DNA from: a virus
Length of the DNA: 47,987 nucleotides
IMG/VR virus record: IMGVR_UViG_3300037558_000967
Coordinates: 1 to 47,987 of that record
Reading direction: 5' to 3' (one strand)
Position 1 is the stretch's first letter, and every line of letters starts with the position of its first letter. The position numbers and the translations under genes were made by a program. The notes under the pieces were generated by a model. The model was not told the DNA's origin and made no database searches. It saw nothing but the letters and a program-made list of their open reading frames with translations. Shown here one piece after another: positions 7,294-47,741 of the stretch.

Positions 7294-7797
7294 TTATTCA
7301 GTGATTTTAGCAGTACCATCCAGAATCTTTCTAAAGATTCTCATGGTTATGCCTTCATCGAAATCAGTAAGAATTAAATGATTTTTGTGCTTGTCGCTAG
7401 GCTCCCCGGTGAGATAGTGTATATCTGGCTCATCATCTAAAATGAAATAGTCGTCAACCTCAGGGTGATCAATTAACCATTTGTTTATTCGATCATACCG
7501 CCAAGGTGTCTCTCTACAACAGTACAAATCCTTGTGAAACAACTCTGGAAGTATCCCCTGAGATATACAGTGATCGTGAACATCTCCGGGTCCGTGAACA
7601 CCAAATTTCCAAAACCCTGTTCTAATCCAACTGGTGTGTAGAACAATTCTTCTATTTTGTTTAAGACAAGCTTCATTAACCATTGAGACAGCACAGGGGT
7701 CGAAAGTAGTCACAATTGGTTCTGTTTGATTTGGTAGCATGTAGGCCCTACCCGGTATCAATACTCCGTCTATATCTAGAAAAAGTATCCTACTCAC
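7294..7797 (-). CDS. HAD-superfamily phosphatase
   Basis: The 167-residue product has HAD motif I as LFLDIDGVL (nucleophile D8, acid D10), motif II as LHTSW and the acidic motif as FILDDEPD. It resembles the HAD domains seen in nucleic-acid repair proteins, so a 5'- or 3'-end phosphatase on nucleic acid or nucleotides is plausible, but the substrate cannot be read from sequence. Its start is GTG at 7797, overlapping the stop of the upstream membrane gene (GTGA). Confidence 0.8.
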   Translation of the reverse strand: MSRILFLDIDGVLIPGRAYMLPNQTEPIVTTFDPCAVSMVNEACLKQNRRIVLHTSWIRTGFWKFGVHGPGDVHDHCISQGILPELFHKDLYCCRETPWRYDRINKWLIDHPEVDDYFILDDEPDIHYLTGEPSDKHKNHLILTDFDEGITMRIFRKILDGTAKITE

Positions 7798-8700: not shown

Positions 8701-9249
8701 TTAACGCAGACCCCTTTCTTTAAGTATGTCGTCCAGAAGCTTAGGACGGTAGTCTGTGTGCTCAACACAAGCACAGTAATATCGAAGATCAGGGTCTTTC
8801 GTTGATACTGACGTATCCCAAGGGGCTATTTTTCCGACAAAGTTTGAGTGGAGATGACCGTGGATGTTCAACTCCCATCGAGACAACGATCCCGGATGAA
8901 TAGGGATGTGACTCATTATGAAGCCTTTCTTCACTACGTATCCCCGAACGTCATCGAACAAATCGAAGTACTTGCGCATCTTAACAGGATCGTGGTTGCC
9001 CGGCACTAGGACCTTACGACCTTTAAGACGACTAACAGACGCTTGCATGTTCCTGTTACTGAAAGCTACGTCACCAAGGATGTACACCCTGTCTTTATCA
9101 TCAACTAACTCATTGTACCACTCGATCATCTGCTCGGTCATTTCCTCAGCATCATCCCAAGGACGGAGAGGAGAACCATCATCTTTCGTAAACTTACAGA
9201 TGTTGTTGTGATAGAAATGAGGATCACTGTAGACCCATGTTCGTACCAT
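8701..9249 (-). CDS. Calcineurin-like metallophosphoesterase
   Basis: The 182-residue protein has the full set of metal-binding motifs in order: YSDPHFYH (D9, H11), ILGDVAF, PGNHDP, SHIP and NIHGHLHS. These proteins hydrolyse phosphodiesters or phosphomonoesters; the substrate is not evident. It is the first gene behind a consensus promoter at 9289-9317. The start is ATG 9249. Confidence 0.9.
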   Translation of the reverse strand: MVRTWVYSDPHFYHNNICKFTKDDGSPLRPWDDAEEMTEQMIEWYNELVDDKDRVYILGDVAFSNRNMQASVSRLKGRKVLVPGNHDPVKMRKYFDLFDDVRGYVVKKGFIMSHIPIHPGSLSRWELNIHGHLHSNFVGKIAPWDTSVSTKDPDLRYYCACVEHTDYRPKLLDDILKERGLR

Positions 9250-10418: not shown

Positions 10419-11208
10419 TTTGAAAAAACTCCTTGTAATCTTTGACCGTCGAACCTTCCAGTCCGGGGGCGGTGTTGATCTCCAAGACATACGCTTTCTT
10501 CTCGTGGTTGTTCCAGATAACGTCCACTGCACCGAAGTCGAGGTCAAGACTCAGAAGAGTGTCCTTAGCCACCTCAATCACTTCGTCTGGGGGTTTGACC
10601 TCAGACCTAGCGTAGATGAAACCGTTAGCGTGGTTACGTACTTGCCAGTTAGGATCAGGGTGTTCGAGACGCCGCTTCTTCTGTTGAAGAGAGATCACAA
10701 CGTAATTGTACTGCCATCCACTATTCTCTGGTTCGTGGTCATTATCTCCTACCCAGATGAGCTTACGTCCGACGTGGACCCGGTACTCGTCTTTCTTTTT
10801 TACGTACTTCGTGTAGAGAGAACAAGGCACGAGAGAACTGCGATCAGCAGCCACAACAATACCAGCACCGCTGTGTCCTTGTAGAATCGTGCGGCAAACC
10901 ACAGGGAATGCATCCTCTGGGATGTCATTCGGACTAGTCCAGAAAAGAGGAAGGTAAGGTTTGCCCTCCAGTTTCCTAAAAAATTCGAGCTTATTTGTAG
11001 CATTGGCAAGTTTATCTCCATCGTTGTTTATTGTTGCCCGGCTGGCTTCCGAGCTGTTACCCCAGTTGATGATAACATCTGAATCTTTAGGACGAAACTT
11101 ACTACCTTCAAGTTTCAGAACTCGTCCTCCTAAGGCATCTGCAAGAGCTTTAGCCCCTTTGCTGCCTTGTTTGTAAGGGAGAACCCTTACTCTTTTATTC
11201 GAAATCAT
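10411..11208 (-). CDS. ATP-grasp ligase (RimK-like) of the peptide cassette
   Basis: The 265-residue enzyme should activate a carboxylate as acyl-phosphate with ATP and join it to an amine. It has INWGNS near the N-terminus, a central nucleotide-binding segment CRTILQGHSGAGIVVA (loop with GHSG), YVKKKDEYRVHV and the metal-binding motif VLEINTAPGLEGSTV near the end. ATG 11208 follows GAGGA and overlaps the end of the upstream amidoligase by 14 bases, so the two are probably made together. Its likely substrates are amino acids or peptides; the product is unknown. Related genes sit beside amidoligases in phiEco32-like phages. Confidence 0.88.
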   Translation of the reverse strand: MISNKRVRVLPYKQGSKGAKALADALGGRVLKLEGSKFRPKDSDVIINWGNSSEASRATINNDGDKLANATNKLEFFRKLEGKPYLPLFWTSPNDIPEDAFPVVCRTILQGHSGAGIVVAADRSSLVPCSLYTKYVKKKDEYRVHVGRKLIWVGDNDHEPENSGWQYNYVVISLQQKKRRLEHPDPNWQVRNHANGFIYARSEVKPPDEVIEVAKDTLLSLDLDFGAVDVIWNNHEKKAYVLEINTAPGLEGSTVKDYKEFFQNA

Positions 11209-12277
11209 CGTAATCCTCTTCTTCCGTTTCTGGGTGGAATACTGCCGGTTCTGAGATACTTTGCAAGTAAGTTTCACTCACAAGACCGTTATACAGTTGT
11301 ATCATAGTTGAATTTGTAGGTTTCTTTGATCTACCAAACGGATCAACCTTGACTTCACCTTCCCTAAACTTCGACCAATCTCGGCAGTAACACAAGTCTT
11401 GCGCAAGCCTGATACCTTCGTAAAGCGAAGACATAACCTGATCGTGGCTAAACCCTGACCCGGATATAACAGTGTTCGTGTACGGACCTAGGATAGTGTT
11501 AATATAATCCAAGGGGCCGTTCCCTGAGAACCCTTCCACGACGTACCGGGGGTCCTTATAGTCGGCACTCAATTCATATATACGTTGTAGGATTTCTACC
11601 CAAGTTTTAATAGTCTCAGCCTCGGTTACACCACGAAGAGTACGAATCTCAATTGAACCGTGTTTAAGCAAGGAGTGACAGTTCAGGCCAGCGTAGTGCA
11701 TACCTTGAGTAGGGCGTACTTGACCATCACTCGCGATGAAATCCTTGATCTGGGATACGATACTGGTGGCGTCTTTGGACCTCAGACAAAAGAGATTCCC
11801 TACTCGGTGGTCGCCACACCAGTGCGTGAGCATATCCTCCAGTGAGAAGTACATAGCAAGAAACGAAGTCATCCTGTTAAGGTGCCAACCTTGGGCATTC
11901 AGGTGCACATGAACAGAAGTTCTGTTACTATCGTCTAGTTTAGACCCGTAACTTTCGAACATAGCCCACAGTTTATCTACTGCACTAGGAACTTGAGAAA
12001 ACTTGATAGGACGTTTCAGGATATACTCTGCGTTGTCCTCACCCCTCAAAGACCCATCGTGAACGAATTTCCACTCAGAAGGGATGAACTTACTGTCTCC
12101 TTGGTTTATCTGATAACCACCACTCTTTGGAAACTTGTTGCCTTCTACTTCAACTTCAATACCAACGTCACCTTTCACAGGAGGATGCCCAAGAACAGCT
12201 CCGATGTTGTAACTTGGTTCATCTTTTGCAGGGTTAATCTTAAAAAAGTCAGCAGGAATCGGTACGCTTTTAGTCAC
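11195..12277 (-). CDS. Amidoligase (glutamine synthetase/GCS2-like fold)
   Basis: The 360-residue product matches the putative amidoligase enzymes related to gamma-glutamylcysteine and glutamine synthetases. Core motifs are VGIEVEVEG (metal-binding acids), WKFVHDGSL, RTSVHVHLN, a YFSLEDML helix and HGSIEIRTLRG, whose Glu and Arg end the catalytic barrel. It would form an amide bond using ATP. GTG at 12277 follows AAGGAGA by 6 bases and is preferred over the TTG 12 codons upstream. It lies between an unknown gene and the ATP-grasp gene inside the cassette. Confidence 0.87.
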   Translation of the reverse strand: MTKSVPIPADFFKINPAKDEPSYNIGAVLGHPPVKGDVGIEVEVEGNKFPKSGGYQINQGDSKFIPSEWKFVHDGSLRGEDNAEYILKRPIKFSQVPSAVDKLWAMFESYGSKLDDSNRTSVHVHLNAQGWHLNRMTSFLAMYFSLEDMLTHWCGDHRVGNLFCLRSKDATSIVSQIKDFIASDGQVRPTQGMHYAGLNCHSLLKHGSIEIRTLRGVTEAETIKTWVEILQRIYELSADYKDPRYVVEGFSGNGPLDYINTILGPYTNTVISGSGFSHDQVMSSLYEGIRLAQDLCYCRDWSKFREGEVKVDPFGRSKKPTNSTMIQLYNGLVSETYLQSISEPAVFHPETEEEDYDDFE

Positions 12278-12296
12278 TTTGAATCTCCTTTGCAGT

Positions 12297-13058
12297 TTAT
12301 TTCTGATCTTCAATAGAACTGAAAGCGCTCAGTTCATTAATCACTTCTCTACAGTGTCCGTAACCTCTTGCAAGAGCTAGTTTGGAGGTGTCTCCGTTAG
12401 GCATGAACCCAACAATATCTTCTTTGTAGGCAAGAAACATCATGTCTAGAGGTCCTCTCAAGACAGCGAACTCTCGGTGGAATGCAGCAGAATTGTTCTG
12501 AGTTGAAGGGTCAGACAGTCTAGATATAACTTCATTGAGGCTTGGATACTGGTTAGTATAGCACAAGTACGCCGCATTAGAGGTGATGCTAGGGGCACTG
12601 TGAGGAACGGAGTTCTTACCACCTTTCATCAGCAAATCTATGGCTCGAACCTTAAGCATACCTTGGGTAAGGCCCTGTTGAGTGTGTCTCGTAGGGCTTC
12701 TGCGTGTATAAAATACCCGACCGGATAAGTCGCAGTTAACCATCCCAACAGGAAACGGACGGTACTTGTTAAACAAAGGGGAATTGGCCATCTTTCGTAT
12801 AATACCCTCGTCAGGGTGCTTTTCCAGCCACTCGTCCATAGCGGCCCCTCCGTAGTCGTACGGTACGTTGAGTCCACGTGCGTGAGCAAGACCACCCTTC
12901 TGTCCAAGTTTGTCCAAATAAATCCTGAAAATACCGTCATCCTTGTGGTCGTCTATCGCCAGCACGTAACAGGGCTCTCCATCATACATAACGACAGTGT
13001 GCTGTAGACGCATCCTAGCTTCTTTCAAGGTTTCATAGAAATTCTTGTGGTTTGCCAT
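12297..13058 (-). CDS. Unknown cassette protein (253 aa)
   Basis: I do not recognise this family. The product starts MANHKNFYETLKEA, has an N-terminal beta-rich part with YDGEPCYVLAIDDHKDDG, a central basic stretch near RRSPTRHTQQ and no membrane segment. It sits tightly between the two carboxylate-amine ligases (3 and 19 bases away), with AGGAG before its ATG, so it is probably a dedicated partner or substrate carrier of the cassette. It could equally be a structural protein. Confidence 0.8.
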   Translation of the reverse strand: MANHKNFYETLKEARMRLQHTVVMYDGEPCYVLAIDDHKDDGIFRIYLDKLGQKGGLAHARGLNVPYDYGGAAMDEWLEKHPDEGIIRKMANSPLFNKYRPFPVGMVNCDLSGRVFYTRRSPTRHTQQGLTQGMLKVRAIDLLMKGGKNSVPHSAPSITSNAAYLCYTNQYPSLNEVISRLSDPSTQNNSAAFHREFAVLRGPLDMMFLAYKEDIVGFMPNGDTSKLALARGYGHCREVINELSAFSSIEDQK

Positions 13059-13061
13059 TGA

Positions 13062-13907
13062 TTAAATGCTCCTGATAGGGAAGTTGTAAATCGCGGATAG
13101 ATCACGGTCAAGTTTACCAGTGTTGATGCTTTTCACTACCCTGTCATTAAACTTGTACGATTTGAACTGTGAGGACTTTTCACAATCCTCTGGGAAATAC
13201 TGTCTTGCCATCTGCTTGAGAGCTGTTTGCATGCGATCCCAGACCCAACGACGATAGTTCGGAGACATTACCCAGTAGTTGCTGAGAACTCGATACTCAA
13301 CACCGTAAGGTTTGAACCTCATCGCGCCAGCTTTACCGTATAGACTACGTCGCGTTTGGTCTTTGTCTATCATAACAGATGGTGCTCCTAGGAACCAGTC
13401 TAGTTGTTTTACTAAATCTGTAGCGGCTTCGACGTAGTCTTCATCGTCAGTACTAGCCCCTTCTGTCCACCCTATGTGTATGTGACCAGCAGCAGTACGC
13501 ATACGAGGAGTTTTATCCCCGTCAGGTGGTGGATTAATCTCTTTAGTCCACGCATTGAAATCTGGTGAACACCCAAGCTGTTTTGCGTCGTCCGGTGCGC
13601 TGTCCCACACCTTTTCACTGAAAGTAAAGGAAGGAGCCGGTAGAAGTTTGCAACCGTCAGGTAGGCGTTTGGATAATTCTCTAAGTACTCGACGGAAATT
13701 ATCATCCCACTCCTTGTAAGAGGTTACAGGGTTTATGTTAAACTCAGCGGCCATCCCGTCTCGCTGTAGAGCACCGCCATCTACAGGTTCTGGGTTTTCT
13801 TTAGTTCCTTCCAAGAAAGTAGGGCACACACCTACTCCGTTACGATCTACAACGAACAACTCGGGGTCTGCACCGAACTTCATGTCAGGGAAAGCATCTA
13901 TTGGCAT
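13062..13907 (-). CDS. phiEco32-like COOH-NH2 ligase, type 2
   Basis: The 281-residue product matches the carboxylate-amine ligase family first named from phage phiEco32. GADPELFVV (residues about 12-20) carries the first metal acids, QRDGMAAEFNINP the second, and AGHIHIGW the histidine pair. The region from LDWFLGAPSVMID to GVEYRVLSNYW closes the active site. It has the glutamine-synthetase-like fold and should form an amide bond with ATP. AAGGAG precedes ATG 13907. It is the second of two different GS-like ligases in this cluster, which suggests at least two bond-forming steps. Confidence 0.9.
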   Translation of the reverse strand: MPIDAFPDMKFGADPELFVVDRNGVGVCPTFLEGTKENPEPVDGGALQRDGMAAEFNINPVTSYKEWDDNFRRVLRELSKRLPDGCKLLPAPSFTFSEKVWDSAPDDAKQLGCSPDFNAWTKEINPPPDGDKTPRMRTAAGHIHIGWTEGASTDDEDYVEAATDLVKQLDWFLGAPSVMIDKDQTRRSLYGKAGAMRFKPYGVEYRVLSNYWVMSPNYRRWVWDRMQTALKQMARQYFPEDCEKSSQFKSYKFNDRVVKSINTGKLDRDLSAIYNFPIRSI

Positions 13908-13928
13908 TTTCAGTTCTCCTTTTCTAGG

Positions 13929-15080
13929 TTAAGCAGTTTTTCGCTTTGATCCGAAATACTGTTCGTATCTCTCGGGATCGGCGTGGACGATATTTCGATG
14001 AGTTTCACCGGAACAACAATTACCGACGAGTTGGTCAGTCCTCTCCCAAATGATAACCCCCAAGTCGTCATATTTGACTTCTTTCCCACACCAACTACAT
14101 CCGTACTTGGCAATCTCGTCGAAGTCTGTTTTGTCTATATAATTAGCGAAAGGACGGTGAGAATCACCGCCAAGCTCAATAATAGGCTGTTGATTAAATG
14201 AAAGGACTGTACATTCCGTGGTATCCGTAGAGGAGTTCGAGGTCTTCTTCGACTGTTGTTGGTTTCCCAGAAAAGGGGCGGTTCCTGCCGAAGCTGACGC
14301 AGTAAACGTCTTACCTTTTATCTCTTCAGTTGTCCAGTCGGGCGGAGTTTTCTTACCTTTAGACGCAAGCTCCTCTAGATCAATCGTGTAAAGCATGTTG
14401 TCCTTAAGAGGGAAATAGGTGTAACCTTCTTCATCCTCCCACAATTCGTACGGGGTTTTGGAAGACTCGACAGCCGATTGAATCATCCAACTCTCAGAGG
14501 CCCAGATAATCTTGGTAAGGTCCTTGCTGTAAGCACACCAAAGCGGTCGGTGCTTGTTCTTAAGGAGATACAAAACCTTTTCTTCTGCATCAAACCACGT
14601 GAGCGCCCAAGCGCCTCTCTGGGGAGTAACTCCTTCGTGCACCATCTCGATAGTGTTCTTAACACCGATTTGGTCAATTGCGTTGAACAACGCCGCACTG
14701 TCTACGTTGGTGGTGGTACCCGTCTCCTTATCAAGGTCGTCCCAGTCACATTGCATCAGGGTTCCGTTGTGAGCACCCACGATGCTGCCAAACTTAAATG
14801 GGTGGGCGTTAACTCCGTTTACCTTACCCATAGTAGCAGCGCGATTGTGACCAAGAAACACGAGAGACTGTGCTCCGTTAATTCCACTGTCAAACTGTTT
14901 CATGTTAAATAGGTCAATTGGGTGGCTAGGGAGTTTCACGATGCTAATGTCACCGTTCTTCTTAAGCCATGCCGCCCCGGTACTGTCGGTACCCCGGAAA
15001 TAATCGAAGATCAGGAGCCTCTTGAACAAGGATTCATCCTTGAACTCAAGATTACCTGCTACACCTACTAAACCGCACAT
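13929..15080 (-). CDS. Class II glutamine amidotransferase-like protein
   Basis: The 383-residue product starts MCGLVGVAG, so the catalytic Cys becomes residue 1 after Met removal, which fixes the start at 15080 and not at the upstream frame. GHNRAAT, AHPFKFG and GAHNGTL are the class II signature, followed by DSAALF and GAWALTWFD. It would release ammonia from glutamine or cleave a gamma-glutamyl bond. The C-terminus (about 325-383) has CSWC and NCCSG, a possible zinc ribbon not typical of the core family. It lies between the class I-type hydrolase and the type 2 ligase, within 2 and 21 bases. Confidence 0.9.
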   Translation of the reverse strand: MCGLVGVAGNLEFKDESLFKRLLIFDYFRGTDSTGAAWLKKNGDISIVKLPSHPIDLFNMKQFDSGINGAQSLVFLGHNRAATMGKVNGVNAHPFKFGSIVGAHNGTLMQCDWDDLDKETGTTTNVDSAALFNAIDQIGVKNTIEMVHEGVTPQRGAWALTWFDAEEKVLYLLKNKHRPLWCAYSKDLTKIIWASESWMIQSAVESSKTPYELWEDEEGYTYFPLKDNMLYTIDLEELASKGKKTPPDWTTEEIKGKTFTASASAGTAPFLGNQQQSKKTSNSSTDTTECTVLSFNQQPIIELGGDSHRPFANYIDKTDFDEIAKYGCSWCGKEVKYDDLGVIIWERTDQLVGNCCSGETHRNIVHADPERYEQYFGSKRKTA

Positions 15081-15081
15081 A

Positions 15082-15903
15082 TTATGCTGTCTCCTTACCT
15101 GTAATTCGTTTAAGTTTCGGTCGTTGGTCGATGACATCTTGTTTCAACCGTCGAACACCATCAACAAGATGTAGGTCAGGGTTCTCAACAAGGAGTTCCT
15201 GAATCCTCAACAAAGTCCAGTACCGAAACTGTGTGAAATCCCTGTACTCCGGGTGACCTTGGACCCCGAAGAAACATGCTCTTCGGTAGAAGAAGGCCTC
15301 AATGTCGGCGCTAGTGCCAGTCTCACGTACTGTTGGACTGGTGTATCTCTCACTTGACCGTCCTTGAGCAACACCGAGAATCTGCATTCCGGGTCGTTTC
15401 TGCACCATCTGATGATGTACGCTGGAGATGTTAGGAATAATACGATTTTCGTCATTCAACCACATACCGTGAGAAGAGTTGTGATTGTTGACGTGCTGAT
15501 AGAGTTTACCGCCCAAAGCAACGTGCCCCATTTGGGCACCACGACAAATGCCCATCATCGGGATACCTTTGTCGTAGCAATAGTTCCACAACTCGAAATC
15601 TTGAGCATCTCGTTTTGGGTCACAAAACGTTTTTGAGTGTTGATGCTCTCCATAGAGGTGAGGTTGTACGTCTGCCCCTCCCCCAAAGATAACTAGGTCC
15701 GCCTCGTCAGGTGTAGACGCTTTACGACACTTACCACCGACCATCATCATCTCAGAAATTAGCCGTTCTTCTACTGCACTTTCTGCTGCAATGTAGACTT
15801 CTGCCCAAAGATCGGGCCACTCTACAGCGCTCCCTCTCCGTATCTGGACAATGAAACTGTTGTCGCTGTTCTTGTTAGTTGGTTTGCTTTTGTTCTTCGC
15901 CAC
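15082..15903 (-). CDS. Class I amidotransferase/peptidase C26-like hydrolase
   Basis: The 273-residue product resembles gamma-glutamyl hydrolases such as PuuD. FGGGADVQPHLYG is the oxyanion region, GICRGAQ carries the nucleophile Cys, and VQGHPEY carries the catalytic His and Glu. It should hydrolyse gamma-glutamyl amides or peptides, or supply ammonia. The start is GTG 15903 with GGAG 7 bases upstream. Finding class I and class II types side by side, next to ligases, suggests building and trimming of a gamma-glutamyl-type product. Confidence 0.88.
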   Translation of the reverse strand: MAKNKSKPTNKNSDNSFIVQIRRGSAVEWPDLWAEVYIAAESAVEERLISEMMMVGGKCRKASTPDEADLVIFGGGADVQPHLYGEHQHSKTFCDPKRDAQDFELWNYCYDKGIPMMGICRGAQMGHVALGGKLYQHVNNHNSSHGMWLNDENRIIPNISSVHHQMVQKRPGMQILGVAQGRSSERYTSPTVRETGTSADIEAFFYRRACFFGVQGHPEYRDFTQFRYWTLLRIQELLVENPDLHLVDGVRRLKQDVIDQRPKLKRITGKETA

Positions 15904-18047: not shown

Positions 18048-18422
18048 TTACACTACCTCCTTCTTCTGCTCGATCAAGTGACAGTTTTGTCCTTTTTCGT
18101 CACCAGTGAACTCAAGCCAATCACCTGACTTAATGAGCCGGTCCAGCGGAGGCTCACCGTTGTAGACATATATGAAGTCATCACCCACTCTCTCACGAAT
18201 GTAAAGAGAAACTTCAGGGGCTTCTTCCCTGTACCCCTCGTAACCGTCGAGAACAGCGAGGTGGGCATCATCGAGAATTTCGATACGCTCACACGTAATC
18301 TTCCCGTCACCGCGACAAACCCCCGGAAACCATCCGAGGTTGAACATCTGGAAGCCTTCGACTTCGACGGTTTCACCGAGGCCGGGACGCAACGTGCCGT
18401 ACACGAGAGCGGTGCGAGCCAT
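18048..18422 (-). CDS. Gamma-glutamylcyclotransferase-like protein
   Basis: The 124-residue product has the family's phosphate-loop-like motif LVYGTLRPGLG at its start and LDGYEGYR, whose Glu is the expected catalytic acid. These enzymes release 5-oxoproline from gamma-glutamyl amines or gamma-glutamyl peptides. The upstream open frame is discarded because MARTALVYGTLR is the normal family start. It is the most upstream enzyme of the peptide cassette, and together with the two glutaminase-like proteins it points to gamma-glutamyl chemistry. Confidence 0.88.
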   Translation of the reverse strand: MARTALVYGTLRPGLGETVEVEGFQMFNLGWFPGVCRGDGKITCERIEILDDAHLAVLDGYEGYREEAPEVSLYIRERVGDDFIYVYNGEPPLDRLIKSGDWLEFTGDEKGQNCHLIEQKKEVV

Positions 18423-18456
18423 CAGAACTGCACCTTGTTGTTGATACTGAGTACCT

Positions 18457-18708
18457 TCACTTGGAAGCTCCTCCTTTGTATTCGGTTGAGTGGCCGAAGC
18501 CATAGGTCTGACCACCGACGCACTTGATGTGTCCATTGGGATCAGGGACGAGCGGGGTGGGGATAGTCTTGTCACGGATACGACCTAGACGACGAAGACG
18601 ACTACGCTCTTCACGAACGTGCTTCTTACGTACACGTGCTTCAGCAGCGTTCCAAGCCTCATCTGTAAGCCCTTCATCGTAAATTTCTTTCATAGTCTTA
18701 CGAACCAT
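18457..18708 (-). CDS. Small basic hypothetical protein (83 aa)
   Basis: The product begins MVRKTMKEIYDEG, and its middle (KKHVREERSRLRRLGRIRDK) is strongly basic and could bind nucleic acid. ATG 18708 follows GGAG; a TTG two codons upstream is an alternative. It overlaps the stop region of the upstream gene. Function unknown. Confidence 0.7.
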   Translation of the reverse strand: MVRKTMKEIYDEGLTDEAWNAAEARVRKKHVREERSRLRRLGRIRDKTIPTPLVPDPNGHIKCVGGQTYGFGHSTEYKGGASK

Positions 18709-19957: not shown

Positions 19958-20137
19958 TTACACGTGCCTCCTTACCACTAACCTAGACACACCACAGTGA
20001 GAGTGGTGATAGAACAAAGCTTTCCAGTCGGTGCCTCCGTCAGTGATTACGTCACCACTACGGATAGGAAACTCGGTCTCCCACTCACCTAGAGTGTCCC
20101 CGTTTTCGGTCATTACGTCTGTGATAACGGTAGCCAT
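19958..20137 (-). CDS. Small acidic hypothetical protein (59 aa)
   Basis: The product begins MATVITDVMTENGD and ends VVRRHV. GGAG lies 8 bases before ATG 20137, which is chosen over the longer open frame. Function unknown. Confidence 0.7.
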   Translation of the reverse strand: MATVITDVMTENGDTLGEWETEFPIRSGDVITDGGTDWKALFYHHSHCGVSRLVVRRHV

Positions 20138-20163
20138 AGAACTTACTCCAAGTCGTTGAGAAA

Positions 20164-20466
20164 TCACCTAAACCTGTTCTTCCAGTCCCAGTCCATACGC
20201 TCTATCACTTCGCAAGTCGGGAAGTGATCCTCCTCGAAAGCGTAGATAGGGCCGTTAGCTCCTTTACACCCGTATCCAACAAGACGAGGATAAGTAGGAC
20301 TTTCGGGATTCACTGCTGTGTCGTAAGGATAGCCTGTCAGTAGCTCGCATTCACGGTCTGTGTCGCACATCAGTTCGTCACTTGGATAAGTGAGATGATA
20401 AGCCACAACAGGAGTTCCAACAGTGAAGGACGCAAGAAGCGCGTACGCAAGACAACCTTTAGGCAC
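20164..20466 (-). CDS. Probable exported or membrane-anchored Cys-rich protein
   Basis: The 100-residue product starts MPKGCLAYALLASFTVGTPV, a hydrophobic N-terminal segment that could be a signal peptide or anchor. It is followed by a domain with four or more Cys (MCDTDREC, GYGC, PTCE), suggesting disulphides outside the cytoplasm. GTG 20466 follows AAGGAAA and is preferred over the GTG 15 codons upstream, which lacks a ribosome site. A role at the host envelope, for example in superinfection exclusion, is possible but unproven. It is the first gene downstream of the hammerhead ribozyme. Confidence 0.7.
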   Translation of the reverse strand: MPKGCLAYALLASFTVGTPVVAYHLTYPSDELMCDTDRECELLTGYPYDTAVNPESPTYPRLVGYGCKGANGPIYAFEEDHFPTCEVIERMDWDWKNRFR

Positions 20467-20628
20467 GACTGGGTTTCCTTTTGTTTGTGAGGGTGAACCT
20501 TTTTTGTTCACAAGACAGTCGGCACTAGTAACCGATTTTGTTCAGGTCTTGTCTGTGACTTTACCGCATCACAGGTAGGGACGGCTATTTTAGACCACCT
20601 GCGGGCATCAACCGCCTAACACCATACA
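20467..20628 (-). other. Structured spacer downstream of the hammerhead
   Basis: Between the ribozyme and the next gene the minus strand can form CTGTGA/TCACAG, CAGGT/ACCTG and GCGG/CCGC hairpins. This would give the 3' cleavage product a structured 5' leader. No gene seen. Confidence 0.5.
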
Positions 20629-20678
20629 GGCTGTGACACTAATGTAGTGTTTCGCTTTTACAAGCTCATCAGACAGCC
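20629..20678 (-). ncRNA. Type I hammerhead ribozyme
   Basis: Reading the minus strand: stem I GGCTGT, core CTGATGA, stem II GCTT-GTAA-AAGC (a GNRA-type tetraloop), core GAAA, stem III CACTA-CAT-TAGTG closed by the A15.1-U16.1 pair, cleavage site TC, then ACAGCC, which completes stem I perfectly. Every invariant core position of the hammerhead is present and the open helix is stem I. Cleavage is expected after C17, between 20635 and 20634. It lies in the leftward transcript between the 190-residue gene and the exported-protein gene, so it would separate the two messages and leave a 5'-OH end on the downstream RNA. Confidence 0.9.
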
Positions 20679-20729
20679 AAAAATGAGCAGTTTTATCCTT
20701 CGTGCTCAGGAAGGTGGCGCTACCTAGGG

Positions 20730-21302
20730 TTAAGCAGCTTTCTTAGCCTTCGAAGCGGAACGCTTCTTAGGCGTCTCGGCGTTGTTGTTGGCCGGTTCCT
20801 TGACAGCCGGGACCTTGACCTTCGTCATCTGGCCGATAACCGACGTAACAGCGTCCGTGAGGTATTCAGGCACTTCCCCGTCGTCCAAGAGCTTCTGGAG
20901 GCGCTTCGGACCCTGTTCGACCATCTTGAGGAGAGCCTTCACGTCGAAGGGCGGACGTTCCTTGTTCTGTTCCGCGAGAACGTAGAAGGGAGTTGCACGG
21001 GCTTCTTCGATGTTGAATGGCACGTACAGCTTGGTTCCTTCCTTGTGCATGCGCGAGGCCCAGTCGTCGCTGTTCTTCACCACGATAGGTGAGAACTTGG
21101 CAAACCACATGATGAGCATTTCACGACGCATAGACGCCGGGAGAGCCATCACGAGGCCTTGTGCAGTCGAACAATCCTTGTGCTCTTTGGCGTGTTCAAG
21201 GATCATCATAGCTGTTTCGTGAACGTACTTGTTCGCTTTGTCGTAAGACGCGGCGATGGTAACGAAACGTGCAGCCATACGGGCATTAAAAGACTTCGCC
21301 AT
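20730..21302 (-). CDS. Hypothetical early protein (190 aa) with Lys/Ala tail
   Basis: The product begins MAKSFNARMAARFVTIAASY, is largely helical and ends in a Lys/Ala/Ser tail (KKRSASKAKKAA) like those of DNA-binding or virion-associated proteins. No family is recognised. It is the largest gene of the early leftward group, with GGAAAGG ahead of ATG 21302, and lies immediately upstream of the hammerhead ribozyme. Confidence 0.78.
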   Translation of the reverse strand: MAKSFNARMAARFVTIAASYDKANKYVHETAMMILEHAKEHKDCSTAQGLVMALPASMRREMLIMWFAKFSPIVVKNSDDWASRMHKEGTKLYVPFNIEEARATPFYVLAEQNKERPPFDVKALLKMVEQGPKRLQKLLDDGEVPEYLTDAVTSVIGQMTKVKVPAVKEPANNNAETPKKRSASKAKKAA

Positions 21303-21340
21303 AGTAGTTTCAACCTTTCCTACAGTTACGTAGTTGTGCT

Positions 21341-21358
21341 CCTAGCGGACTTGCTAGG
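21341..21358. repeat. CCTAGC/GCTAGG hairpin
   Basis: A perfect 6-bp stem, CCTAGC-GGACTT-GCTAGG, sits in the gap between two minus-strand genes. The tetranucleotide CTAG recurs in nearly every gap of the 19-22 kb region. There is no T-run, so a processing or regulatory hairpin is more likely than a terminator. Confidence 0.55.
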
Positions 21359-21390
21359 GGAGAACCTACGGACAAACAGTGACTAAGGGT

Positions 21391-21627
21391 TTAAATGTCG
21401 TTTCGAGAACGGAAGATTTCACGGGTTACGCGATAGACTTCCGTGATGTTACCAAGCATCACAGCTTCATTGTCTGTAGTCTTAGCTTTCTTCAACGCAG
21501 CGATTGCGTCGTCAATTTTTGTTACTTCCAAAGGGGAAGCAGCGCGAGGCGCTAGTTTAGGGCGGGCAGTGCTACTGCCAACCCGTATGTTGTTGTTGAT
21601 TCTCTGGTGAGAGCAACGTGTTCCCAT
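21391..21627 (-). CDS. Small hypothetical protein (78 aa)
   Basis: The product begins MGTRCSHQRINNNIRVG, with a basic first half and a helical second half (KIDDAIAALKKAKTTDNEAV). GGAGA lies 7 bases before ATG 21627. Function unknown. Confidence 0.7.
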   Translation of the reverse strand: MGTRCSHQRINNNIRVGSSTARPKLAPRAASPLEVTKIDDAIAALKKAKTTDNEAVMLGNITEVYRVTREIFRSRNDI

Positions 21628-21717: not shown

Positions 21718-21907
21718 ACACCTTTATTACACGCGGATTGGTGAAGTTGTAAAAGCCTTTACCATTAGGGTATTTTTTACCCGTACCGTCTTCGTTTAAG
21801 TAACGACGTTGGAATGCGTCCAGACTTTCAAACGCAAGGTCTATACCTACGTTTCGGTCTAGATAGTAGAAAGTTTCGCCGTTCTTTTCATAATCTACGT
21901 TAAACAC
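21716..21907 (-). CDS. First small gene of the leftward unit (63 aa)
   Basis: The product begins MFNVDYEKNGETFYYLD, is polar and aromatic-rich, and ends NFTNPRVIKV. The start is GTG 21907 with GGGAG 9 bases upstream. It is the first gene read from the leftward promoter at 23.0 kb and is flanked by 29-base inverted repeats. Function unknown. Confidence 0.65.
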   Translation of the reverse strand: MFNVDYEKNGETFYYLDRNVGIDLAFESLDAFQRRYLNEDGTGKKYPNGKGFYNFTNPRVIKV

Positions 21908-21930
21908 AGCAATAGCTCCCTAAGAGGTTA

Positions 21931-21959
21931 CGCCTAGAGAGCCTTCGAACCATTGCTAG
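21931..21959 (-). repeat. 29-base imperfect inverted repeat, right copy
   Basis: On the minus strand this reads CTAGCAATGGTTCGAAGG, then CTCTCTAGGCG. It differs from the 21672-21700 copy at three positions only. It lies just upstream of the ribosome site of the 63-residue gene. Confidence 0.75.
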
Positions 21960-22023
21960 GGTTTTTGCTTTCGCGGGAGCCGCCACACATCCGTAACTGC
22001 CGATTGACCGAAGCCACCCGCTA

Positions 22024-22063
22024 GTTTAGCTTGATTTCAGGGAGCACGGTCCCCTAGCTAAAC
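22024..22063. repeat. Long hairpin in the leftward leader
   Basis: GTTTAGCT (22024-22031) pairs perfectly with AGCTAAAC (22056-22063), and an inner AGGGA/TCCCCT stem extends it. The loop is about 6 bases. It is a candidate transcript-stability or attenuation structure. Confidence 0.55.
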
Positions 22064-22936
22064 GTCATTCACCGGTTGACGGGCTTGTCAAACCCTACTG
22101 ATTGCCGGACCATAGGACAGTCGCATTACTGCCGCCTATGTTGCACCTTATCGTCAGGAAACCGTACTAGCCAAGCGTGGCTTTCCAGTCGCAACCCTAA
22201 CGTTGTGCCCAAGAGCAATCCCGTTGCTTGTCCGCTTGCACATACGGCCCCTAGGCGCAACCCTAGGTCATCCATCCACCGCAACCCACACCAAAGCGTA
22301 GGGGTGGCCTTTCTCGCATGTTGTCCGCAAGGGACTATCGTCTGAAAGACTGGGCAAGCCCGATTGGGTTGCTCGCTTTCGATGCCCCCTTTGACCACAG
22401 TACGGCCCTCCTGTCAAATGTGTGTGTTTTCAATGGGTTACGAGAGAGTGTTCCCCTTGTGTTCCTCCGTTCTTTCCGATTATTACCGATTACATGTGTA
22501 ATTCTTGCTTATAGGCGTAACATTATTGCGTGAGTTCTGGCGTGATTGAGACGAACCGTGCAGATTTAGCGACGAACCGAGTGATGTACACTGTATGTTC
22601 TCACTGTGTTCTCTTTTTGTATCCCCTCCCCCTCCGGCGGGCCTACTTGTGAGGATATATTGTATCATCCCCTAGGGGGAGGGTGGAACCCGCGCGCGTA
22701 TGTGGGCGAGTGAGCCGGACTCATCTGTTACATAAAAAAAATAGAATTATGCTATATTGGATTTTAAAGGGGGTAGGATTGAAAAAGTAGGGTTGAGTGG
22801 TACATGGGTAGCGGACCGCCCCCTAGATGCAACGAGAGGCCCCTTAGAATCCAATCTAGAGTAACAACAGAACTAAAGAAAGGGTCCTCCCGCGCTCTGC
22901 CGGTCGGCCCTACCCTGATTCAAAGCCCCTGTGCCC

Positions 22937-23013: not shown

Positions 23014-23042
23014 ATTATATACTACTTTTTCCTTTTTGTCAA
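23014..23042 (-). promoter_or_regulatory. Leftward sigma70 promoter (early/replication arm)
   Basis: On the minus strand TTGACA (23042-23037) and TATAAT (23019-23014) are perfect with 17 bases between. It heads the whole leftward arm. Confidence 0.92.
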
Positions 23043-47004: not shown

Positions 47005-47736
47005 TTACTTGATCTTTTCTCTCCGTCCGAGGAACCAGTGGCCACAGTTAGAGCACTTGTGTCGTTGAGTCCTGAACATACGGGTTACCTTCCAGCCCCG
47101 CTTCTGGTTGCTCGCGCTGTTGCACGAAGGACAACGAGTAATAGACGACGCATCTAGGTGTGGGTGATTAGCGACAAAAGGTTTGATCTTGTCATACATA
47201 CGAGCCGTGATACGAACGTCCTGTACACAGTAACGTTCCATACGAGCCTGTGCTTTCTTGTCTCCATCCATAACAGCTTTCCAAAGGGCAAAGCCTTCGT
47301 GCTTAAGCTTGTTACCGATACCTAGACGAGGAGCAACGTAAGCCATACGGTTCATGTTGAAACCAAACTTCTTGACTGTCTTGATTAGGTCGATACTAGC
47401 AACAGGGGGCGGAGGGCTTAGCCCTGCCAGCATGATTTCCCCGGTGATCTTGGGGATGTCGTACTTGTCACCGTTGTACGTGACAACAGCATCAGCCTGT
47501 TCTAGTAGGTCGAGAGCGGCCTTAGCCATTCCCTCTTGCCCGTCCTTCCACTTGCTGTAGAACTGGAACTCGTTAGTCCCTGCCCAGTTAGCACAGAAGC
47601 ACAGCATACCGCCGTGATCCACTAGCATGTCGGGTTGGATGTTTTCTTTCCACATTCGCCACACGTAGGCGAGTGCGGGCTGCCATTCGATGTCTATGAT
47701 TAAGACTTTGGCAACACTGTCTTTACGTTTACTCAT
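47005..47736 (-). CDS. DEDD-family 3'-5' exonuclease with C-terminal zinc ribbon
   Basis: The 243-residue product has VLIIDIEWQPA (acids D15, E17), VVTYNGDKYDIPKI and YCVQDVRITARMY, the three exonuclease motifs of RNase H-like DnaQ/YprB-type enzymes. A four-Cys ribbon (RCPSCN and HKCSNCGHW) lies near the end. It probably degrades DNA or RNA in replication or host take-over. ATG 47736. Bases 47635-47741 of this gene are duplicated in inverted form at the window's left end. Confidence 0.82.
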   Translation of the reverse strand: MSKRKDSVAKVLIIDIEWQPALAYVWRMWKENIQPDMLVDHGGMLCFCANWAGTNEFQFYSKWKDGQEGMAKAALDLLEQADAVVTYNGDKYDIPKITGEIMLAGLSPPPPVASIDLIKTVKKFGFNMNRMAYVAPRLGIGNKLKHEGFALWKAVMDGDKKAQARMERYCVQDVRITARMYDKIKPFVANHPHLDASSITRCPSCNSASNQKRGWKVTRMFRTQRHKCSNCGHWFLGRREKIK

Positions 47737-47741
47737 TATTA
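47635..47741 (-). repeat. Source of the inverted copy at the window start
   Basis: Identical, in reverse complement, to 1-107. This copy is in a continuous operon with intact genes on both sides, so it is the genuine one. Confidence 0.9.

Follow-up and report, generated by a model that had tools for sequence, protein, structure and literature searches.

Organization of the locus

The window, by which we mean the whole stretch of DNA that was analysed, is a virus record of 47,987 bases taken in full. Its genes include those for a P22-like portal protein (phrog_156), a terminase, a DNA polymerase and a primase/helicase. Most genes of the left-hand part point leftward, the structural genes rightward. 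Within the leftward block, a gene for a protein of 190 amino acids (positions 20730 to 21302, minus strand) is assigned to phrog_1448, of unknown function, and its product has distant relatives in phages of Caulobacter, Brevundimonas and Nostoc. It is followed by a small gene (20164 to 20466, minus strand) that encodes 100 amino acids when read from the GTG at 20466, the longest open reading frame starting at 20511. Judged by eye, the small protein has a hydrophobic N-terminus; neither PHROG nor Pfam gave a family for it, and tblastn gave partial relatives in the viral loci L004, L041 and L050.

Two compact RNA elements lie between these genes on the minus strand, namely an H-type pseudoknot of 31 nt (20684 to 20714) and, 5 nt downstream of it, a complete type I hammerhead ribozyme (20629 to 20678), recognized by its core bases, its stems and a covariance-model match. 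The predicted 3′ cleavage product would carry a leader of 168 nt (20467 to 20634, minus strand) before the GTG at 20466. A sigma-70-like promoter, TTGACA-17-TATAAT, lies at 23014 to 23042 on the same strand and agrees with the consensus at 12/12 positions, this being a consensus match only. The leftward transcript could start there, and we infer from the sequence that transcription passes through the hammerhead site.

Other features were observed elsewhere in the window. About 510 nt at 21905-22417 (minus strand) are apparently noncoding and structured. The nearest relative (L004, 6450-6964) has them at an unchanged spacing, in blocks that are about 78% identical; Rfam gave no family for this stretch. 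A perfect inverted repeat of 107 bp lies near both window ends (1-107 and 47635-47741) and is either a terminal inverted repeat or an assembly fold-back. Two further minus-strand stretches, 7294-7797 and 8701-9249, encode a HAD domain of the type seen in RNA-repair proteins (HAD_SAK_2) and a calcineurin-like phosphoesterase; RNA ends made by a ribozyme might be substrates for enzymes of this kind. Finally, at 11195-15903 and 18048-18575 (minus strand), there is a cluster of amidoligase, COOH-NH2 ligase, glutamine amidotransferase, peptidase C26 and gamma-glutamyl cyclotransferase, which looks as if it served peptide or glutamate-based modification.

Structure and significance of the hammerhead

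Read on the minus strand from 20678 to 20629, the element is GGCTGT.CTGATGA.GCTTGTAAAAGC.GAA.ACACTACATTAGTGT.C.ACAGCC. Stem I is open and pairs 20678-20673 with 20634-20629 over 6 bp. Between its two strands lie the core CUGAUGA (20672-20666), a stem II of 4 bp with a GUAA loop (20665-20654), the core GAA (20653-20651), a stem III of 6 bp that includes A15.1-U16.1 and has a loop of 3 nt (20650-20636), and C17 (20635). The conserved type I core (CUGANGA, GAA(A) and U-H17) is present in 20629-20678, as are looped stems II and III, an open stem I and intact pairs next to the core. In isolation, the minimum-energy fold of the 50 nt is exactly the hammerhead structure, although its folding energy is ordinary (z -1.29). 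Hammerheads cleave themselves after H17, leaving a 2′,3′-cyclic phosphate and a 5′-OH. From its place in the core, the cleavage site is predicted to lie between C 20635 and A 20634, so the coordinates, the strand and the 5′-OH end at 20634 that an earlier note on this DNA had given are right. The element falls outside every same-strand open reading frame of at least 60 amino acids and is on the sense strand of the leftward block, between the 190-residue gene and the small gene.

The core pattern CTGATGA-N12-GAAA occurs once in the window, where 0.05 matches would be expected. In 1000 first-order Markov sequences of window length there were four loose hits, none of which reached stem lengths of 5, 4 and 4 bp. 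A covariance model, R1, was made from 13 equal-length hammerheads that were picked from viral contigs by pattern, the window being left out. This model gives the window hammerhead 49.5 bits (E 7.6e-15), a match that argues for type I membership, and the next-best match in the window 9.6 bits. Among the matches listed, which number 104 in 66 sources and range from 75.9 to 27.8 bits, the window hammerhead is mid-range. The strict scan, the fold, the R1 score and the absence of comparable stems from the 1000 random sequences together confirm the claim that a complete core and three stems are contained in 50 bases of the minus strand.

An Rfam search, which the earlier note had named as a check, showed the element only below the cut-off. 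The best model, RF02275 Hammerhead_HH9, gave a full-length alignment that includes every core base, but in a search of 301 bases the score was 22.2 bits (E 0.0027) against a gathering cut-off of 52. For this reason, the element is not filed as HH9, and at the gathering threshold Rfam gave no hammerhead anywhere in the window.

Hammerheads in other viral contigs

A pattern scan of viral contigs yielded a hammerhead set of at least 120 loci (L084-L203), in which counts are lower bounds and which is biased toward the stem II named in the search pattern. Among the matches listed, 59 of 128 pattern matches are hammerheads themselves, and the strict scan found 103 hammerheads in 65 of the 120 loci listed. 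An alignment of 89 distinct rows from these matches, fitted to the model and including the window, has 98.8% of its pair cells paired, and 14 of 16 pairs changed on both sides. Among the matches listed, a same-strand open reading frame of at least 60 amino acids contains 8 of 88 phage hammerheads, compared with 62% of random places, and a Shine-Dalgarno-like start lies within 50 nt past the cut in 63 of 93 distinct hammerheads, compared with 12% of random places. In contrast to these 63, the window hammerhead has its next start 168 nt past the cut.

In other respects, the window hammerhead follows the set: its GUAA is the commonest loop II (11 of 88) and its 6 bp the commonest stem I length (60 of 88), in both cases among the matches listed. 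It is the single copy in its record. When 40 of the 65 hammerhead-bearing records among the matches listed were examined, many of them fragments, 22 had two or more copies and 18 had one. Two bases past stem I, the window has a G, whereas an A occupies this place in 47 of the 60 phage hammerheads whose stem I has 6 bp (among the matches listed); a tertiary contact may thus be missing. The window could also form an outer stem I of 4 bp, but stems of this kind do not occur in phage hammerheads more often than in shuffled sequences. Phage hammerheads (L084-L203) were also seen to favor strongly a stem I of exactly 6 bp followed by T/A and, at the next base, A; this combination is possibly the signature of a tertiary contact in type I hammerheads of phages.

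Hammerhead in relatives of the virus

No close relative of the 190-residue protein was confirmed in viral contigs, and therefore the portal protein was taken for the relative search. It gave 80 relatives, the nearest of which is 91% identical in the portal. The strict scan found a hammerhead in 0 of the 80 loci, and a model search of the whole records of 40 of them gave no credible one; two weak matches (18.3 and 14.2 bits) had no core and were rejected. A relative of the 190-residue gene is present in 18 of the portal relatives, and in 17 of these the junction behind it can be read. None of the 17 matching junctions carries a hammerhead, the element being absent there as a whole and not just broken in its core, and some of the contigs look like near-duplicates (for instance, L021/L024, L047/L048 and L055/L067). 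Cd1, BC, Babayka, KSC and NMeng1, named phages in which the 190-residue gene has a relative, likewise gave no hammerhead in the strict scan. Among named phages, there were no DNA-level relatives of the stretch 20000-21400, and a short hammerhead query gave chance-level pieces only; an exact 26-mer of the hammerhead had 0 matches in viral contigs. Absence from 17 of 17 comparable junctions indicates that the hammerhead is a recent gain or easily lost. Judging from these comparisons, it was probably gained recently in this lineage, and the count of 0 of 17 speaks against a strongly selected role.

The neighbouring pseudoknot

The pseudoknot, which the earlier note leaves unmentioned, has the sequence CCTTC-CTGAGCAC-GAAGG-ATAAAAC-TGCTCA, in which S1 is formed by CCTTC and GAAGG, S2 by TGAGCA and TGCTCA, and ATAAAAC is an A-rich linker. 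It lies 16 nt past the stop codon of the 190-residue gene. A similar pseudoknot is found behind this gene in 7 of 17 relatives, compared with 23 of 540 random stretches under the same relaxed scan. In viral contigs, the form CCTAGGCA-N6-TAAACTGCCT and the compensated form CCTGAGCA-N6-TAAACTGCTCA each occur in at least 120 stretches, and two mismatched forms occur in 1 and 3. For the CCTAGGCA form alone, a search also covered genomes of bacteria and archaea (257 Gb), and it gave one match. The pattern leaves S1 free but for its first C, and S1 pairing of at least 3 bp is seen in 98% of 113 cases versus 24% with shuffled partners (among the matches listed). Furthermore, in 11 aligned pseudoknots (A4), both partners vary in 7 of the 10 pairs, although these rows were picked by a pairing-demanding scanner. 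A4 leaves out the window copy and the first L007 copy on account of their longer linkers; as the window linker also exceeds that of the searched pattern, the window pseudoknot is placed in the family by likeness and not by exact pattern. A copy is also present in the isolate Synechococcus phage S-H38, where one pair of S2 is G-U.

Among the matches listed, 114 of the 225 pseudoknot copies with enough upstream sequence lie within 12 nt past a stop codon, compared with 3% of random places, and 71 of the 225 are at exactly 5-6 nt, where the peak lies. As a whole, the family (L209-L327, L007, L334-L453 and the window) was observed to be widespread, virus-specific and strongly covarying, and it is possibly an undescribed phage mRNA 3′ element.

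Several other identities were considered. Matches of the pseudoknot query in Lactobacillus phages have an incomplete S2; STAXI (RF01728) had no match in any of 10 records, with E values of up to 10 allowed. A preQ1-I reading of the pseudoknot was dropped because only about one base lies between S2 and S1′. Stop readthrough driven by the pseudoknot was also rejected: among the matches listed, the extension is short (median 15.5 codons) without strong frame bias, and it reaches 40 codons or more in 19 of 154. In the tested stretches, no Rfam match overlaps the pseudoknot copies, except for a snoRNA match that spans the window copy and is at chance level (E 1). An earlier description was found neither in Rfam 15 nor in the open literature, including the accessible part of PMC2864571, a search from which subscription journals are mostly absent; it is possible that one exists.

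The two elements rarely meet. Hammerheads occur in 2 of 240 pseudoknot loci (L340 and L426), and a relaxed pseudoknot within 150 nt of a hammerhead in 0 of 103 from the hammerhead set, both among the matches listed. In L340, the two share a strand and are about 0.9 kb apart. Only in the window were they seen at a distance of 5 nt, an adjacency that may be due to chance.

Interpretation

We favor, with a probability of roughly 0.77, a genuine type I hammerhead of the phage kind that acts in cis on the leftward early transcript, where its cut would uncouple two messages. The sense strand, the place between genes and the 12/12 promoter upstream make a cut in a polycistronic RNA the natural reading. 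The earlier note had proposed such a cut, and these three features agree with it, although the idea itself had been published before (PMC3088659). According to this reading, the leftward RNA would cut itself after C 20635 during synthesis. The upstream mRNA would end in the pseudoknot and the hammerhead with a 2′,3′-cyclic phosphate, giving the 190-residue message a structured 3′ end, and the downstream mRNA would begin at A 20634 with a 5′-OH and the 168-nt leader. The most likely effect would be that the stability and the amounts of the two messages are uncoupled.

It is very improbable that the match arose by chance or is an inactive look-alike, since none of 1000 random genomes had comparable stems and a model from other phages gives 49.5 bits, even though the Rfam score is under gathering and the folding energy is ordinary. 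Activity could also be neutral: a hammerhead mobile among phages may have landed between the genes and cut there without any selected effect. Its absence from all 17 comparable junctions, its single copy in the genome and a next start codon 168 nt away are consistent with such a passenger. Nevertheless, an unselected element of 50 nt should decay, whereas here stems and core are intact, and the element lies outside genes in sense orientation, as do 80 of 88 phage hammerheads among the matches listed; we consider this account somewhat unlikely. The 168 nt speak against the idea that the ribozyme provides the downstream small gene with its 5′ end, a role proposed for HHphage of HF1/HF2. This role has that precedent (PMC3088659) and the proximity of 63 of 93 phage hammerheads, among the matches listed, to a start within 50 nt. 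It is improbable in the window, where the start is distant and the predicted opening of the ribosome site is nearly the same in uncut and cut RNA.

The favored cis-acting hammerhead might be part of something larger, a single 3′-end module with the pseudoknot, itself a member of a virus-specific, stop-proximal family not found in Rfam 15. In such a module, the pseudoknot would mark and shield phage mRNA ends, and the hammerhead 5 nt behind it would supply the cut in this lineage. The 190-residue mRNA would then end knotted and nuclease-resistant without a terminator or a protein nuclease. We infer this coupling ourselves and hold the module to be doubtful.

In general, the window hammerhead adds a well-formed case to a known, poorly understood group, the kind having been known since 2011 (PMC3088659). 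The question of what such hammerheads do gains a testable shape, as 63 of 93 phage hammerheads among the matches listed lie within 50 nt of a start, while related pseudoknots peak 5-6 nt past stops; with the two only 5 nt apart, the window is a natural place for studying both elements. Should the pseudoknot prove as new as it seems from these searches, an RNA signal not yet listed would be present at an entire class of mRNA ends in phages.

Comparison with known systems

The window hammerhead resembles HH9 in its full-length alignment and in every core base, but its loop II is shorter and its stem sequences differ. The window pseudoknot resembles that of the T4/T2 gene 32 mRNA, likewise a compact phage mRNA pseudoknot, in topology only. 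According to PMC3014915, the gene 32 element serves as a 5′ operator and lies 67 nt before the start of a single gene, while that of the window belongs to a kind that follows the stops of many genes.

The statement of the earlier note that hammerheads are known in phages is borne out by Perreault et al. 2011 (PMC3088659). That paper reports hammerheads in phages and prophages, with cleavage in vitro and, for one set, also in E. coli, and suggests that those of phages split long RNAs into gene-length mRNAs. In 2017, a review called the prokaryotic role open (PMC6155905). The window hammerhead resembles the phage examples of PMC3088659 in its core, its three stems, its intergenic place and the proposed splitting of polycistronic RNA. 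It differs from them in being single and not clustered, in lying directly behind a pseudoknot and in not being conserved among relatives. HHphage of the haloviruses HF1/HF2, from the same source, is likewise a hammerhead in the early-gene transcript of a lytic virus; there, it lies 13 nt before the helicase start and an mRNA 5′ end was mapped near the cut, whereas in the window the distance to the start is 168 nt.
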